41,888 nucleotides of DNA, taken from positions 1 to 41,888 of the IMG/VR virus record IMGVR_UViG_3300027996_000068, one strand, 5' to 3'. A program made the translations under genes and the position numbers. Source of the DNA: a virus. The stretch's first letter is position 1, and each line of letters begins with the position of its first letter. Shown in pieces: positions 22,846-38,577 of this stretch. The notes beneath the pieces are model-generated. The model was given only the letters and a program-made list of their open reading frames with translations, had not been told where the DNA came from and did not search any database.

Positions 22846-23223
22846 CTAGAATGGTAATTCATCATCGCCTTCTTCAACTACAACTGGCTCACTATCCTCA
22901 TTAACAGCTTTCTTACTATCTAAAAAAGTAACATCCTCAACAACTATATCTGTTGTATATATCCTGGTACCATCTTTTTCATAACTTCCACTTCTCAATC
23001 TACCACCTACACTAATCATGCTACCCTTAGATGTATAATTACACATTGCTTCTGCTGTCTTTCCCCAAACTTCACAGTTAAAGAAATCTGCTGTTGGCTG
23101 TCCCTCTTTCTTAAATTTCCTATCTACTGCAATATTAAACTTACAAACCACCTTATCACTTCCAACACTCTTTAATTCTAAATCCTTTGTAATTCTTCCA
23201 ATTTGAATAACTTTATTATTCAT
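22846..23223 (-). CDS. ssb: Single-stranded DNA-binding protein
   Basis: A 125-residue OB-fold protein: 'NKVIQIGRITKDLELKSVG', 'CKFNIAVDRKFKKEGQPTADFFNCEVWGKTAEAM', 'GSMISVGGRLRSGSYE' and an acidic C-terminal tip DDELPF. This is the complete bacterial-type SSB, shorter in the linker than host SSB. The tip recruits replication and repair partners. It protects ssDNA during phage replication and works with the ERF annealing protein encoded further upstream. An AGGAGGAATTA site precedes the ATG. Confidence 0.95.
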   Translation of the reverse strand: MNNKVIQIGRITKDLELKSVGSDKVVCKFNIAVDRKFKKEGQPTADFFNCEVWGKTAEAMCNYTSKGSMISVGGRLRSGSYEKDGTRIYTTDIVVEDVTFLDSKKAVNEDSEPVVVEEGDDELPF

Positions 23224-26208: not shown

Positions 26209-26514
26209 TTATCCCTCCACTACTTTCTTAGCTTCCTCTACTGAATAAACTACACCCGCTGCACAACCTCGCATCTTCATTTGTTCAATAAAGTTTAGTT
26301 GTTCTTTACTGGTTTTCCCTTTTCCAGCTTTAACTTCTAAAAAACTAACTTTACCATCTTTAATACAAAACAAATCAGCGAATCCTTTAGGTAATCCAGT
26401 ATCAAACCACCTACCATCACCCATTTTAAACTTACCAACATTCGCCCTAAATACTACATATCCCATTTTACTTAGTTCTAATCTAATCGTATTTTGCAAG
26501 TCATGTTCTGTCAT
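26209..26514 (-). CDS. VRR-NUC nuclease
   Basis: A 101-residue, single-domain PD-(D/E)xK nuclease of the VRR-NUC family. The N-terminal helix has 'EHDLQNTIRLELSKMGYVVFRAN', the catalytic site is Asp47 in 'GFADLFC' and 'FLEVKAG' with Glu60 and Lys62, and Gln72 follows in 'KEQLNF'. Phage members act as structure-specific nucleases, often on Holliday-junction-like DNA. It lies just after the SF2 helicase gene, and the pair is common in phage replication modules. Confidence 0.92.
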   Translation of the reverse strand: MTEHDLQNTIRLELSKMGYVVFRANVGKFKMGDGRWFDTGLPKGFADLFCIKDGKVSFLEVKAGKGKTSKEQLNFIEQMKMRGCAAGVVYSVEEAKKVVEG

Positions 26515-26531: not shown

Positions 26532-27902
26532 TCACATAAAATTTTCAAGTCTGTAATCGTACTTATTCGGTATTGATATTCTTAATTCTTTGCATTTATG
26601 TAAGCACCAACTAAACTTATATCCTTTCGATTTCTGGAATTTCTTAACTTGTTCAAATGTTTTAAGTTTTTCATAAAAAGCATAATTCTGTTTACTTAAC
26701 ATTCCTTTTCTATCTAATTCTTCTAACTCATAATCAATCATTTCTTTTTCATACCTGGATTCGTTTAATATTTCATATCCACAAAAAGGACAAACTCTAT
26801 GATTAAATGAAAATGTTGTAAAGCATTTAATACAATCTCTTATTTTAATTTCATTTTCTTTTCTAGTTGCTTTTTTACTTTTAAGGCTCCATTCACGTTC
26901 ATCATCTGGAAAACCATGTCTATATACATTTCCAACATGATCTATAATTACCGCTGTCTTACCTTCCTTATATCTCATACTTCTCATACTCTGTTGAATA
27001 TGTATTGTTAGTGACTTAGTAGGTCTTAACAAAACTACCGTTTCGCAATCTGGAACATCAAACCCTTCTCCAAACAAATCAACATTTACTAATACATCTA
27101 TCTTCCCTTGTCTAAAATCATCTATTGTGTTTTTACGCTTCGCCTTTGGTGTTTCTCCATCTAAATGTGCAGCCGATATATTCGCCTTGTTAAATGCTTC
27201 TGCTGTTTTCTTTGAAGCTTCTACAGTTGAACAATAAACTATTGTTTTTGTATTAGGTGAAATCTTCAACCAATTATCTACTGTATCGCCAAAAATTTGA
27301 GATTTTTCCATCAATAAAGCTACTTGCTTTTTATCAAAATCACCCATTTTAGTTTTTAATCCTTTTGTTTCAGCTAACTTTATAGAATAATACTTATATG
27401 GAGATAAAAAACTATTACTTATAAGCCATTCAGTTTTAACACCAGTAATCATTGTTTCGTATATTGTTCCAAGTCCACCCTCTTTATCCCTAACAGGTGT
27501 TGCAGTAAATCCTAACCTTAAAGCTTCTGGAAACTTCTCATATATCTTAATATAAGTTTTTGCTAAACTATGGTGACATTCATCTGTAATAATGATATCT
27601 GGTTTTTCAATCTTATCTAATCGCCTTGAAACCGTTTGCACCATACTAATATCGCATAACTCAAAATTAACCCCACATATAGCAAATGTACCTTCTATCT
27701 GTTCACAAAGTTCTTTACGATGCACTAAAAACAAAACTCTATTACCTTTTAATGTTGCACTACTGGAAATCTTACCTTGTATAACAGATTTTCCACCGCC
27801 ACAACCTAATACAGCACATATAGACTTACTACCACTTTTTATACTATCCCTAATTTTGTTTACTAAATCATCCTGATATGGTCTTAGTTTCAAAATAATC
27901 AC
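26532..27902 (-). CDS. SF2 DEAD/DEAH-type helicase
   Basis: A 456-residue helicase. Motif I is 'GCGGGKS' (33-39), motif II 'DECHH' (107-111), motif III 'GFTATP' near 131, then helicase C domain with 'IVYCSTVEASKKTAEAF', 'VLVNVDLFGEGFDVPDC' and motif VI 'QQSMRSMR'. A zinc site 'CIKCFTTFSFNHRVCPFCG' follows at about 360-380. This is the layout of phage SF2 helicases linked to replication or recombination. It lies between the iteron region and the VRR-NUC gene and should unwind DNA during replication. Confidence 0.93.
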   Translation of the reverse strand: MIILKLRPYQDDLVNKIRDSIKSGSKSICAVLGCGGGKSVIQGKISSSATLKGNRVLFLVHRKELCEQIEGTFAICGVNFELCDISMVQTVSRRLDKIEKPDIIITDECHHSLAKTYIKIYEKFPEALRLGFTATPVRDKEGGLGTIYETMITGVKTEWLISNSFLSPYKYYSIKLAETKGLKTKMGDFDKKQVALLMEKSQIFGDTVDNWLKISPNTKTIVYCSTVEASKKTAEAFNKANISAAHLDGETPKAKRKNTIDDFRQGKIDVLVNVDLFGEGFDVPDCETVVLLRPTKSLTIHIQQSMRSMRYKEGKTAVIIDHVGNVYRHGFPDDEREWSLKSKKATRKENEIKIRDCIKCFTTFSFNHRVCPFCGYEILNESRYEKEMIDYELEELDRKGMLSKQNYAFYEKLKTFEQVKKFQKSKGYKFSWCLHKCKELRISIPNKYDYRLENFM

Positions 27903-28094: not shown

Positions 28095-28383
28095 TATCTA
28101 ACATATCTAACGTGCATCTAACGTAATTTTACAAATGTAAGACACTTCAACACCTACTTACTAGCCTGTTTCAAGAAATATCTAACATATCTAACGTTTT
28201 TTTAGACTTAATACTATATAAGATAAAAAATATTTATTTATTATTTTACTATTATAAATTTTCTCTCGTATATATATAATATATATGTTAGATATGTTAG
28301 ATATGTTAGATACTTATATTAAAGCCTTGATACCACTCACTTAAATATCTAACATTTTATCTAACATAATTTTAAATGTTAGA
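28095..28383. repeat. Iteron cluster with AT-rich core: candidate replication origin
   Basis: The core TCTAAC (consensus ATATCTAAC) occurs seven times on the + strand (28098, 28107, 28118, 28181, 28190, 28348, 28360) and four times on the - strand (28287, 28296, 28305, 28378). Copies are mostly spaced nine bases, and the 20-mer ATATCTAACATATCTAACGT occurs twice 83 bp apart. Between the groups, 28199-28285 is almost pure A/T, like a DNA unwinding element. The region lies between the primase/ATPase genes and the helicase gene and holds no gene except the very end of the ATPase gene. Confidence 0.8.
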
Positions 28384-30220
28384 TATCTTTAAAACTTTCT
28401 TTACATTCTTCTGTTACTACCTCGTTTACAAACTTAATATAATTAGCTTTAACCCCAAAACACATAGTATTGTGAATCATTCTATCTTGGCTATTTCTTA
28501 AAACTTTATCTCTCTTAGACCATATTTTTAACATCGAATTTAAATCATAGTTATGTTTATTCATTAACTCACTTAGTTTTTCTTTAGAGAATAATATATA
28601 ACTACTTGTCATCTTTCCCCATATTTCTCCACTATTGTCAGTTTCTTTAAATCTATTAATATTAGTCGCTATGGTACTCATAACAAACTGATAACATCTT
28701 TCAGTAACATCTATTTCTTTAGCTGTTAATAAATATTCCTTAACGTCATCTAACTTTATAGGTTCTTCTTCTTTATATATACATTCACAGGCTAATCTAT
28801 CTCCTAGCAATATCATACTAATAGCCATAGCTTGTTTTTCAGTAGTATCACATATTTCTAATACATTCTTAAATATCTTTTTATACTCTGTATTTATATA
28901 TTCAGATTTATCTTTTATATATTTTACAAACTCAATCCCTGCGTATCCATAATTGCAACTTATAAAATCAACTACATCTTTTCCATTTTCAACTACAACT
29001 TTATCATTAACATCTACTTCTATAACTCTGTTCTTAACACCACCACCACTATTATCTTTAGTAATAGGATCTTCACCAGTAAATAAAAATGAATTTTTCC
29101 ATGTTCTCATTTCATTATTCTGACTAAATGTCATTCTTCCACGCTCTACACCTTCACATATCTTCATTATCAATGTATCGTAATTGTCGAACTTGTTTTT
29201 AATAAGTTGTAACTCATCTCCTGCAAATGGTATATTTCTTAAAAATGCACACGTTGACATCATACTATTGGCTGTCATGTTCATGGTCTTTGTAAGTTTA
29301 CCCATTGTAGCATTACCCCATATTGACATTGCAACTATCATTCCAACTGTTTTACCTGAACCAGTACCACCCCATAAATGTAAAACATAAGGTAAAGTAT
29401 TTAACTTTTCTATCAATACACTTGAAAAACTAGTAGCCATTTGTATTCTTAATAACTTATTCTTTCTTAGCTTAGATGTATATGAAGTCCATTCTTTAAA
29501 ATCTCCATCTACCTTAATACATTCAAATAAGAATTTATTTTCTCTTTCTCCGTCAAATTTAATGTTTTGGTTGTAAGGCATAAAGTCTTTTTCTACCCAT
29601 CCAAGCCTTGAAACACTCTTATAATGTGGTATAATATAGTTATCAGGTTCATCATTAATGCTTTCAATTTTATCAAATTGATTCAAACTAATACAATCAT
29701 ATAAATAAGACATTAAGTCTTTAGAATTTAAACTATTAACATCAATACCTAGATTAGATAATTCAACTATCTTGTGCAAATTTGAGATAGTTGTTTTTTC
29801 GCAAATTAAACTTTGCCACCTACCATGTTTATAAAAACATAACTTTAATTTTTCTATACCTGAATCCATATTTTTATATGTTTCTGATGGAACAATCATC
29901 ATCCTAGAAGCTTCTATTTCATCAACTTCACCAGTTTCATTATTTGCAACTTGTTTATATATTCCATCTTGATTAGTTATCCAACTACCAGTACATATTG
30001 CAGAATATTCTTTGTTAAATCCACATAAATTATACTTTTCTAACTTGCTATTAGCTTGTTTTTTCTTATAAGCCTTAAACTTTTTATCAAATATTCCTAT
30101 TACTCTTAACTCCCTAGCCTTCATTTTAACTTGCATTTCTAAATCTTCATTTCCCATAAGCTGTTTTAAGGTAGTTTCTTTTACTATATCTAAGTCCGTC
30201 AATGCTTCAACGTTCATCAA
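28379..30220 (-). CDS. DUF927-type ATPase (putative replicative helicase)
   Basis: A 613-residue protein. Walker A is 'WGGTGSGKT' (284-291) within 'PYVLHLWGGTGSGKTVGMIV', followed by 'IPFAGDELQLIK' as Walker B near 335. N-terminal residues 100-275 contain 'RLGWVEKDFMPYNQNIKFDGE', which is the DUF927 pattern. Such proteins act as primase-associated helicase-like ATPases in mobile elements and phages. It overlaps the CHC2 primase gene by four bases (ATGA), so both form one priming/unwinding unit. The stop lies inside the iteron cluster. Confidence 0.85.
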   Translation of the reverse strand: MMNVEALTDLDIVKETTLKQLMGNEDLEMQVKMKARELRVIGIFDKKFKAYKKKQANSKLEKYNLCGFNKEYSAICTGSWITNQDGIYKQVANNETGEVDEIEASRMMIVPSETYKNMDSGIEKLKLCFYKHGRWQSLICEKTTISNLHKIVELSNLGIDVNSLNSKDLMSYLYDCISLNQFDKIESINDEPDNYIIPHYKSVSRLGWVEKDFMPYNQNIKFDGERENKFLFECIKVDGDFKEWTSYTSKLRKNKLLRIQMATSFSSVLIEKLNTLPYVLHLWGGTGSGKTVGMIVAMSIWGNATMGKLTKTMNMTANSMMSTCAFLRNIPFAGDELQLIKNKFDNYDTLIMKICEGVERGRMTFSQNNEMRTWKNSFLFTGEDPITKDNSGGGVKNRVIEVDVNDKVVVENGKDVVDFISCNYGYAGIEFVKYIKDKSEYINTEYKKIFKNVLEICDTTEKQAMAISMILLGDRLACECIYKEEEPIKLDDVKEYLLTAKEIDVTERCYQFVMSTIATNINRFKETDNSGEIWGKMTSSYILFSKEKLSELMNKHNYDLNSMLKIWSKRDKVLRNSQDRMIHNTMCFGVKANYIKFVNEVVTEECKESFKDI

Positions 30221-30726
30221 ATCAACTCCAAACTCATTATTTTATCCCACCAGTATTCACGCTGTCCATTTGCAAATATCCATAAATTATTCGGCTCTTC
30301 ATAACGTTTAGGTTTATTATTAATACAAATTTTATCGTATTCTCCAAATACACTATAAGCGTTAAAATATTTTTCTTTCTTAGCTTCGTCTTCAAGTTTC
30401 CTTTTTGACATAATAGCTTTTCGTCTTGCTGTTTTTATCTTTTGCTCCCTTGTTAACTTACCACCTAGACCTAAACTAAAGTCCTCATTAAGTTTTTTAC
30501 AGGCATCAATAGGTTTTAAAGCAAACATTTTAGAAACAAATGATATTAAATCCCCTGCTTTATCATTGCAAGTATGACATTTATATAATTGTTTTCTATC
30601 ACTAATACTGAAAGACTTGTTTTTCTCTTGATGAAATGGGCATAATGCCTTATTGTGATTAAGTTTGACACCATAACGCTCCACTACTTGTCTAATCGAT
30701 AATTCACTTTTAATGTGTCCAAACAT
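30217..30726 (-). CDS. CHC2 zinc-finger primase N-terminal domain (stand-alone)
   Basis: A 169-residue protein whose first 65 residues are the DnaG-type CHC2 zinc finger: Cys29 and His32 in 'CPFH', Cys50 and Cys53 in 'CHTC', with 'KNKSFSIS' between and 'GDLISFVSKM' after. No TOPRIM catalytic domain follows; the rest is basic and helical. Catalysis may come from another protein or the host. It overlaps the DUF927-type ATPase gene, and together they could replace a fused primase-helicase. Confidence 0.85.
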   Translation of the reverse strand: MFGHIKSELSIRQVVERYGVKLNHNKALCPFHQEKNKSFSISDRKQLYKCHTCNDKAGDLISFVSKMFALKPIDACKKLNEDFSLGLGGKLTREQKIKTARRKAIMSKRKLEDEAKKEKYFNAYSVFGEYDKICINNKPKRYEEPNNLWIFANGQREYWWDKIMSLELI

Positions 30727-32743: not shown

Positions 32744-33376
32744 TTATTCCTTTTTAATTTCAAGTGCTGCACATATTTCGTCATATTCTTGTCTAGTTAA
32801 ATCCTTAGTTGATTCTTTATTCCATTTAACTTTAATCCATTTCTTAACATCTTCTTCTGTTTTCTTAGCAATTTTTGCAATTGTGTATAGCCTTTTAATT
32901 TGTTTATCAGATAAAGTTGATTTCTTTTGTTCTGGCTTAGTTTGTGGCTTAGTTTGTGGCTTAGATTGTGGCTCATCTTGTGGTTTAGGTGTATCTGAAT
33001 CAGCATCTTTTGTATCATCTATTGCAAGTAATCCATTTAAAGCGTATTTTCTAGCGTACGAACTTGTAGCACCTGTTATCTGTGATTCATCCATTCCTTT
33101 TTTATTTTCTGGCTCTCTAGCATTTGCAACCACTTCTACTTTTTCGCCTGTTTCAGCATCAATAAATGTTGCTGTTGCTTTAACATAGTAGCGACCTTCT
33201 ATATGTTCAATTTCATCATTTATAACAATCAATACCTTGTTTTGCAGTAAAAGAGGTTTAACACCTTCTAATATATCTTCGCAACTTCTATACTTATATT
33301 TCCCAAATGAATTTGTTTGCGATTTTGGAGCCTTTAACTCACTTTGTACTTTCATTAGTTTCAAATATACGCTCAT
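32744..33376 (-). CDS. erf: ERF-family single-strand annealing protein
   Basis: A 210-residue protein. The ERF signature is clear: 'FGKYKYRSCEDILEGVKPLL' near 24-43 and 'GMDESQITGATSSYARKYALNGLLAIDDTKDAD' near 93-125. It is followed by a Pro/Gln/Lys linker with PQTK repeats (about 128-150) and a helical C-terminal domain ('QIKRLYTIAKIAKKTEEDVKKW'). ERF proteins anneal complementary ssDNA and help circularise and recombine phage DNA. The ATG overlaps the stop of the small gene before it (ATGA). It probably works with the SSB. Confidence 0.92.
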   Translation of the reverse strand: MSVYLKLMKVQSELKAPKSQTNSFGKYKYRSCEDILEGVKPLLLQNKVLIVINDEIEHIEGRYYVKATATFIDAETGEKVEVVANAREPENKKGMDESQITGATSSYARKYALNGLLAIDDTKDADSDTPKPQDEPQSKPQTKPQTKPEQKKSTLSDKQIKRLYTIAKIAKKTEEDVKKWIKVKWNKESTKDLTRQEYDEICAALEIKKE

Positions 33377-35014: not shown

Positions 35015-35695
35015 ATGACAAGTTTAGTTATGATAAAGAAAGTTAAAAATGAAGAATTAGCTATGACAACCAGTAATGATATTTCAGAAATGTTTGATAA
35101 AAGGCATGATAATGTCTTAAGTAGTATTAAAAATTTAGAGTGTAGTGATGAGTTTCGACTCCTAAATTTCAAGGAATCAAACTACAAAAATTCACAAGGA
35201 AAAACATACTTAGAATATTTAATTACTAAAGATGGATTTGTTTTTTTAGCATTTGGATTTAGTGGTAAAAAAGCAGCTGCATTTAAAGAAGAATATATAA
35301 AACAATTTAATAAGATGGAATCACTTATAAAAGAAAGACAAACACAAGAATGGCAACAAGCAAGATTACAAAGTAAGAATTTCAATAAAGAATTAACAGA
35401 TGAAATAAAAGTTTTCATTGAATATGCTACAGAACAAGGTAGCAAAAGTCCAAAAATGTATTATGTGCATTTTGCAAAGCTAATTAATAAAGCATTGGGT
35501 ATTAGTTCAAATGAAATTGATTTAACTAATCAGATAACTTTAAGGAACAAAGCAATACTTATAGAGGTTATTGAAAAAGAATTAGTTGAGAATATGAAAA
35601 ACACTGTGTTTTATAAGGAGATATTTAAGAATTGTAAGATTAAAGTTGAGCAGCTTATTAATTTTATACCAAGTTTGAATAAAAAGGAGGATTAA
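35015..35695 (+). CDS. Rha-family regulatory protein (first copy)
   Basis: A 226-residue protein. Residues 5-105 are the phage Rha domain: 'TSNDISEMFDKRHDNVLSSIKNL', 'YKNSQGKTYLEYLITKDGFVFLAFGFSGKKAAAFKEEYIKQFNKMES'. The C-terminal half ('IKVFIEYATEQGSKSPKMYYVHFAKLINKALG') is shared with the second copy at 37894. Rha proteins are found in temperate phages as regulators or antirepressors. AACTAGGAGGAAC before the ATG is a good ribosome site. It is cotranscribed with the RHH gene before it and a zinc protein after it. Confidence 0.85.
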   Translation: MTSLVMIKKVKNEELAMTTSNDISEMFDKRHDNVLSSIKNLECSDEFRLLNFKESNYKNSQGKTYLEYLITKDGFVFLAFGFSGKKAAAFKEEYIKQFNKMESLIKERQTQEWQQARLQSKNFNKELTDEIKVFIEYATEQGSKSPKMYYVHFAKLINKALGISSNEIDLTNQITLRNKAILIEVIEKELVENMKNTVFYKEIFKNCKIKVEQLINFIPSLNKKED

Positions 35696-37754: not shown

Positions 37755-37925
37755 TTGATTAAAGATACTACGATTACTATAAGAATAAATAGTAAGCAGA
37801 AAATCGTGGCTCAAACCAAAGCAGACAAATTAAACAGATCTTTGACAAACTACATTGAGAATCTCATTAAAATCGACTTAAAGGAGCTGTGTTATGAAGG
37901 AGTTAGTAATAGTGAAGAAGGTTAA
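37755..37925 (+). CDS. Ribbon-helix-helix regulator (TTG start)
   Basis: A 56-residue protein: 'MIKDTTITIRINSKQKIVAQTKADKLNRSLTNYIENLI' is a clear RHH: strand ITIRIN, helix, 'LNRS' turn, helix. TTG at 37755 is chosen because AAGGAGGTG lies six bases before it; the ATG at 37707 would overlap the promoter. It is cotranslated with the second Rha copy (32-base overlap). It is not close in sequence to the RHH at 34728. Confidence 0.75.
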   Translation: MIKDTTITIRINSKQKIVAQTKADKLNRSLTNYIENLIKIDLKELCYEGVSNSEEG

Positions 37926-38577
37926 TAAAAAAGATGTCCCAGTAACAACAACTAAAATTATTGCAGATGAAGTAGGGAAATCACACAGGAGTATTTATTT
38001 GTTAGTAGAAAAGTTTAAAAGTGACTTTGAAATCTTCGGAAGGGTATCATCCCAAATGACACCCTTTGATACAAAAGGTGGTCAACAAAACTTAAAAATT
38101 TATATTTTAAATGAGCAACAAACAACTTTATTAATAACATATCTTAGAAATAACGAAAGAGTTAGAGAGTTTAAAATTAAATTAGTGCAACAATTTTTTG
38201 AAATGAAAGAGTTTATACAACAAAAGCAAACTGACGAATGGAAAGGTGCAAGAGAAGATACTAAGAAATTTAATAGGACCTTAACTGATGCTATAAAAGA
38301 CTTTGTAGAATATGCCGAATCACAAGGAAGTAAAAGTTATAACAGATATTATAAAATTTATGCTGACCTTGTAAATAAATGTTTGAACATTGAATCTGGA
38401 AATAGAAATAATCTATCATCCGATTCAATGCGTGACCAAACATTTATAAGTAAGTTTCTTGAAAAAGAAATCTACAAGGGTATTACCGATAATACTAATT
38501 ATAAACAAATTTATCAGAATTGCAAACATAAAGTTGAATATTTCATGGAATGTTTTGGATTAAAATTAAAAGCTTAA
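37894..38577 (+). CDS. Rha-family regulatory protein (second copy)
   Basis: A 227-residue paralogue of the protein at 35015. The Rha domain has 'TTTKIIADEVGKSHRSIYLLVEKF', 'GGQQNLKIYILNEQQTTLLITYLRNNERVREFKIKLVQQFFEMKEF'. The C-terminal half shares 'DFVEYAESQGSKSYNRYYKIYADLVNKCLN' with 'VFIEYATEQGSKSPKMYYVHFAKLINKALG' of the first copy. The N-terminal half is more diverged, so the two probably recognise different targets. It is preceded by an RHH gene, as is the first copy, and followed by a terminator. Confidence 0.82.
   Translation: MKELVIVKKVNKKDVPVTTTKIIADEVGKSHRSIYLLVEKFKSDFEIFGRVSSQMTPFDTKGGQQNLKIYILNEQQTTLLITYLRNNERVREFKIKLVQQFFEMKEFIQQKQTDEWKGAREDTKKFNRTLTDAIKDFVEYAESQGSKSYNRYYKIYADLVNKCLNIESGNRNNLSSDSMRDQTFISKFLEKEIYKGITDNTNYKQIYQNCKHKVEYFMECFGLKLKA

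Follow-up and report, generated by a model that had tools for sequence, protein, structure and literature searches.

A cluster of short repeats near 28 kb of this viral genome raises two questions: whether it is an origin of replication and, if it is, which protein reads it. The window, meaning the whole stretch of 41,888 nucleotides that was analysed (IMG/VR virus record IMGVR_UViG_3300027996_000068), belongs to a phage of about 31% GC. An earlier note on this DNA had described eleven TCTAAC cores, seven on the plus strand and four on the minus strand, on both sides of an 87-base, nearly pure A/T stretch at 28199-28285, and had proposed that these were iterons with an unwinding element. On recount, the coordinates and counts of the cores proved correct (28097+, 28106+, 28117+, 28181+, 28190+, 28287-, 28296-, 28305-, 28348+, 28360+, and 28378-, in 289 bases), and the A/T stretch holds only 9 G/C. 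All 11 copies conform to a longer consensus, ATCTAACnT, with an A before the hexamer and a T two bases downstream.

The copies fall into inner and outer groups. An outer group on the plus strand (28097-28122) is separated by a 58-base spacer (28123-28180) from an inner pair on the same strand (28181-28195). The A/T-rich core, which is presumably the melting site, follows, and on its other side lies an inner triplet in the opposite orientation at nine-base steps (28287-28310). A second outer group, of mixed orientation, occupies 28348-28383. Read on the helicase strand, with numbers for the bases between words, the layout is: > 12 < 6 < 37 > 3 > 3 > [91] < 3 < 58 < 5 < 3 <. The earlier note had placed the mixed group over the end of the ATPase gene; this holds for the last copy (28378-28383), which overlaps the stop codon (28379-28381), and the rest of the group lies outside the gene.

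Could such a cluster arise by chance, or from low complexity, in DNA so rich in A/T? The word is itself A/T-rich and the genome has a low GC content. However, at the density found in the window outside the cluster, about 0.2 copies would be expected in 289 bases, and the probability of 11 or more is 7e-16. One 6-mer occurs 11 times in the 400-base segment that follows the DUF927 gene on its 3' side, while the best of 407 other such segments holds 7 of any 6-mer. The place and layout are, moreover, conserved in relatives with different and often G/C-rich words, as described below. Local count and conservation together refute a chance origin, to which we assign a practically negligible probability. 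Cumulative GC skew, which the earlier note had suggested as a check, was computed and shows no turn at 28 kb, being monotonic up to 34.5 kb; the skew follows gene strand and is therefore uninformative on the origin.

The gene that ends in the cluster (28379-30220, minus strand) encodes the most likely initiator, an AAA+ helicase homologous to SaPIbov1 Rep and SCCmec Cch. Pfam matches were obtained to DUF927 (PF06048, 7e-26) and to the Cch helix-turn-helix HTH_56 at the C-terminus (PF18662 'Cch HTH', 2e-11), and a Walker A motif, GGTGSGKT, can be read at residues 284-291. A phmmer search of PDB returned one relevant chain, 8tch (SaPIbov1 Rep, 7e-16). An AlphaFold model built from 56 sequences reached a pLDDT of 86.5 (an alignment-free model reached only 30), and its top Foldseek matches were 8tch (6e-24) and 5dgk, SCCmec Cch (1e-22), with others far behind. 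Identity to SaPIbov1 Rep is 15% across the structural match. No Rep_3- or lambda O-type initiator was found beside the iterons by Pfam and PHROG searches of the neighbouring genes.

Several features of this locus are those of the SaPI origin, which is defined by two iteron sets around an AT-rich region (PMC6092414). SaPIbov1 and the window both have a DUF927-type AAA+ initiator with a C-terminal HTH, an origin immediately past the 3' end of the initiator gene (the last iteron of the window reaching into the stop codon), and an AT-rich core between two iteron sets. For SaPI Rep and Cch2, recognition of their own iterons, on the downstream side, has been reported (PMC7581432). The iteron word of the window, ATCTAACnT, differs from that of SaPIbov1. 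Where SaPIbov1 has an upstream primase of the AEP type (PMC7581432), the window has a DnaG-type CHC2 zinc-ribbon protein (30217-30726, minus strand, overlapping the start of the helicase gene); we therefore do not claim the AEP sub-type for this locus, only the Rep/ori part. Among the staphylococcal cassette elements, SCCmec Cch (5dgk) belongs to the same helicase family as the DUF927 protein of the window, whereas Cch2, which binds direct repeats downstream of its own operon, belongs to a different one; SCC elements of pattern 2 prime with CCPol-MP, unlike the window, and for SCC elements in general replication in vivo is presumptive. A layout of the same kind as the window's is found in the S. 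aureus satellite PT1028, where nine AGTTCC repeats (iterons AGTTCCC) surround an A/T core downstream of the DUF927 gene.

Unlike the SaPI and other PICI satellites, which are without a full structural gene set of their own, the window is a full-size phage. Terminase large subunit, portal, tail fibre and endolysin genes were all found in it, and the presence of structural and lysis genes therefore identifies a phage and not a PICI satellite. Several further genes, all on the minus strand, accompany the cluster: an accessory SNF2/DEAD-type helicase downstream of the origin (26532-27902), a VRR-NUC nuclease assigned to a replication/recombination module (26209-26514), a single-strand DNA-binding protein (SSB; 22846-23223), and an ERF single-strand annealing protein (32744-33376). 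Of 121 relatives, 64 have a homologue of the CHC2 protein, the presumed priming partner. On the plus strand, two regulators of the Rha-like, anti-repressor type match one PHROG (2657); they lie about 2-3 kb apart, at 35015-35695 and 37894-38577.

To place the locus among its relatives, searches at several levels were used. A DNA similarity search with the origin region retrieved no match in annotated phages, and a single-sequence query for related loci retrieved none; an alignment query succeeded, and 160 further loci were taken with it from viral and bacterial contigs. Each of the annotated phage records inspected that has a DUF927 gene shows an array of repeats in the gap that follows the helicase gene on its 3' side, and these arrays bear no origin annotation in those records. 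Among them, the Clostridia/Firmicutes phages AC844P1, Jekyll, phiRg507T2, THSA-485A and FP_Epona share the gene order of the window and an array 3' of the helicase, but differ from it in their iteron words (GTAACC, TGTTAC, GGTAACCG, TAGGTGAAAC). With no iteron word preselected, 124 of the 142 loci with enough sequence have their most frequently repeated 6-mer within the 400 bases that follow the helicase stop on its 3' side, where about 2 would be expected. The words vary widely (GTAACC, TGTTAC, GTTCCC, TCCCAC, TTACAC, CCTAAC, TGAAAC, TTGCAC and others) and are often G/C-rich.

The layout, in contrast to the words, is constant across the relatives while flanking genes differ. The iterons flanking the core are oppositely oriented in 100 of 109 origins, at a median of 95 bases from start to start, and outer groups come after spacers; the mixed orientation at 28348-28383 is the usual outer group of the relatives and no exception. 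Distances between neighbouring iterons of opposite orientation peak at 13, 23, 43-44 and 54 bases, in steps of about one helical turn (relatives L005-L171, which are not independent of one another). The layout of the window is thus the family pattern and, judged from these sequences, it is common among phages of Firmicutes, those of the gut included. The kind of replicon has itself been described before, in staphylococcal pathogenicity islands (SaPIs); what is new is how far it has spread through phages, that the iteron word changes, and that the architecture stays fixed. A literature search found no account of such origins in DUF927 phages, though one may still exist.

We compared iteron words with the domains of the DUF927 protein in 109 loci. 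The distance between iteron sets correlates with HTH distance when ATPase distance is given (partial r 0.20, permutation p 0.001), whereas the value for ATPase distance given the HTH is -0.006, and that for a middle domain of similar length given the HTH is 0.02. In disjoint nearest pairs, those with differing iterons have the greater excess HTH divergence (p 0.01). Relatives L118 and L055 are 98% identical in the ATPase and 73% in the HTH, and have the iterons GGTAAC and GGTAGA; L106 and L042 (97% and 70%) have GTGTAA and GGGTTA. Both pairs look like cases in which reader and word changed together. DNA identity drops about 300 bases ahead of the helicase stop, at the border of ATPase and HTH, and mostly does not recover downstream; in these two pairs and in L117 versus L106, the HTH, the origin and the downstream genes all differ past this border. 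In several pairs, recombination exchanged the HTH, the origin and everything downstream together. Because the HTH code adjoins the origin, the co-variation could partly be linkage, a possible contribution that is inseparable from functional coupling, and we do not claim that the coupling is purely functional. Nevertheless, the co-variation lends indirect support to binding of the iterons by the C-terminal domain of the DUF927 protein.

The earlier note had listed three possible initiators: the DUF927-type ATPase, an RHH protein (30829) and a 49-residue protein (27909). Homology, fold and the co-variation of iterons with the HTH favour the ATPase as the likely one. The other two were dropped as initiators, as a homologue of either was detected in 0 of 121 representative helicase-bearing loci, in searches whose queries of about 50 residues have low sensitivity. 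A related possibility is that the repeats are operators, at which the RHH protein, an HTH protein (24863) or the 49-residue protein acts as a repressor or partition protein controlling the early operon. Iteron-like arrays can indeed serve as operators, and RHH and HTH genes exist in the window. However, the region contains 7 promoter-like sites against 8.9 expected and no excess of promoters or terminators, the flanking genes on either side share one direction, and the layout stays fixed although those genes change. Together with the missing homologues of the RHH and 49-residue proteins just described, with the same caution as to short queries, this makes control of the early operon very unlikely.

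It could also be that the cluster is an origin with a different initiator, such as the DnaA of the host or a phage protein not recognised as one, and that the DUF927 helicase is only recruited to it. Binding by the protein of the window is a prediction, and a blind scan indicates that similar arrays have other neighbours. The scan covered 2.9 million viral contigs and looked for three TCTAAC words set nine bases apart, and for one longer tandem pair. It gave 36 loci with dense arrays (at least 7 copies per 300 bases), in 14 of which a DUF927 helicase adjoins the array on the same contig; these 14 include the closest relatives found for the DUF927 protein of the window (up to 41% identity). Apart from slight departures in L229 and L260, the complete helicases of the set have a wing motif in common with that protein, N(S/T)Q....H.T...G.K. 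The remaining 22 of the 36 arrays are not beside a DUF927 gene, and at least 3 lie directly 3' of other primase-helicases with the layout unchanged: two beside Zn_Ribbon_Prim/Toprim enzymes (L312:2785-3024 and L295:3460-3699) and one beside a Toprim/DUF5906/VapE-like enzyme (L240:12312-12582). We therefore reject the array as a fingerprint of DUF927 alone; the iteron word by itself is not diagnostic, and the layout seems, from these cases, to mark the origins of helicase-type initiators in general. Nevertheless, iteron word and DUF927 HTH vary together, the reported behaviour of SaPI Rep and Cch2 is of the same kind, and Rep_3-, DnaA- and lambda O-type initiators are absent among the Pfam-scanned proteins of the window, a subset of its ORFs. 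A different initiator is accordingly improbable. In two further loci from the scan (L232:13303-13520 and L276:9987-10194), a dense TCTAAC array and the 5' end of a 772-aa gene are separated by about 300 bases; the L232 gene is without a Pfam match, and its product may be an unrecognised initiator.

We consider it highly probable that this phage starts replication within 28097-28383, at an origin of the SaPI Rep/ori type. Place, layout, the varied words of the relatives and, next door, a homologue of an initiator that reads iterons downstream of its gene all support the proposal of iterons with an unwinding element. The DUF927 protein from the adjoining gene would bind the ATCTAACnT iterons by its C-terminal winged-helix domain, and ring helicases would assemble on the two opposed iteron sets. 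The A/T core between the sets would then be melted by the protein, which would load onto the exposed strands, with forks departing both ways; priming and synthesis would probably pass to the CHC2 zinc-ribbon protein, the SSB and the host polymerase. The anatomy, the homology and fold of the initiator, the conserved place and layout, and the co-variation of iterons and HTH were established in the present analysis, and binding, double-ring loading and melting are proposed by analogy with SaPI and SCCmec work.

The same organisation in full-size phages and in more than 100 related loci, many of which come from bacterial genomes, joins satellites and phages in one replicon type. A DUF927 gene alone should be enough to locate the origin in many unannotated phages, the relatives form a natural data set on which wing amino acids recognise which iteron, and cloned origins of this kind would be expected to work as decoys against phage. 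A broader proposal, which could equally well prove right or wrong, is that the temperate phages of Firmicutes have in common a single modular, self-loading type of origin, and that they swap the C-terminal wing of the initiator and the iteron word as a matched cassette, yielding many mutually incompatible replicons. Its architecture of inner and outer groups, helically phased spacers and a second element, CAAACCCGCATAAATACTGGCTTT, would be fixed, also with unrelated primase-helicases.

Words resembling this second element sit in the spacers between iteron groups of the relatives. The exact word AAACCCGCAT is found in 23 of 121 origins and in 0 control stretches, and an 11-base core with up to 2 mismatches in 57 of 121. 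There are often two copies per origin, usually on one strand, although which strand varies by phage. In the window, the 37-base spacer holds a possible diverged copy, at best half of the element (TGGTATCAAGGCTTTAATATA, 28314-28336, minus strand); its match to L292 has a shuffle p of about 0.0025, a tentative value as several comparisons were made. Hairpins in the spacers are poorly supported and we do not claim them, the mean z being -0.35 (controls, -0.07) and both window spacers having +0.3. The second element is perhaps a priming or remodelling site, and examples of it, which about half of the relatives carry, can be seen at L010:6620-6860, at L087:5670-5900 and in the spacer of L292.
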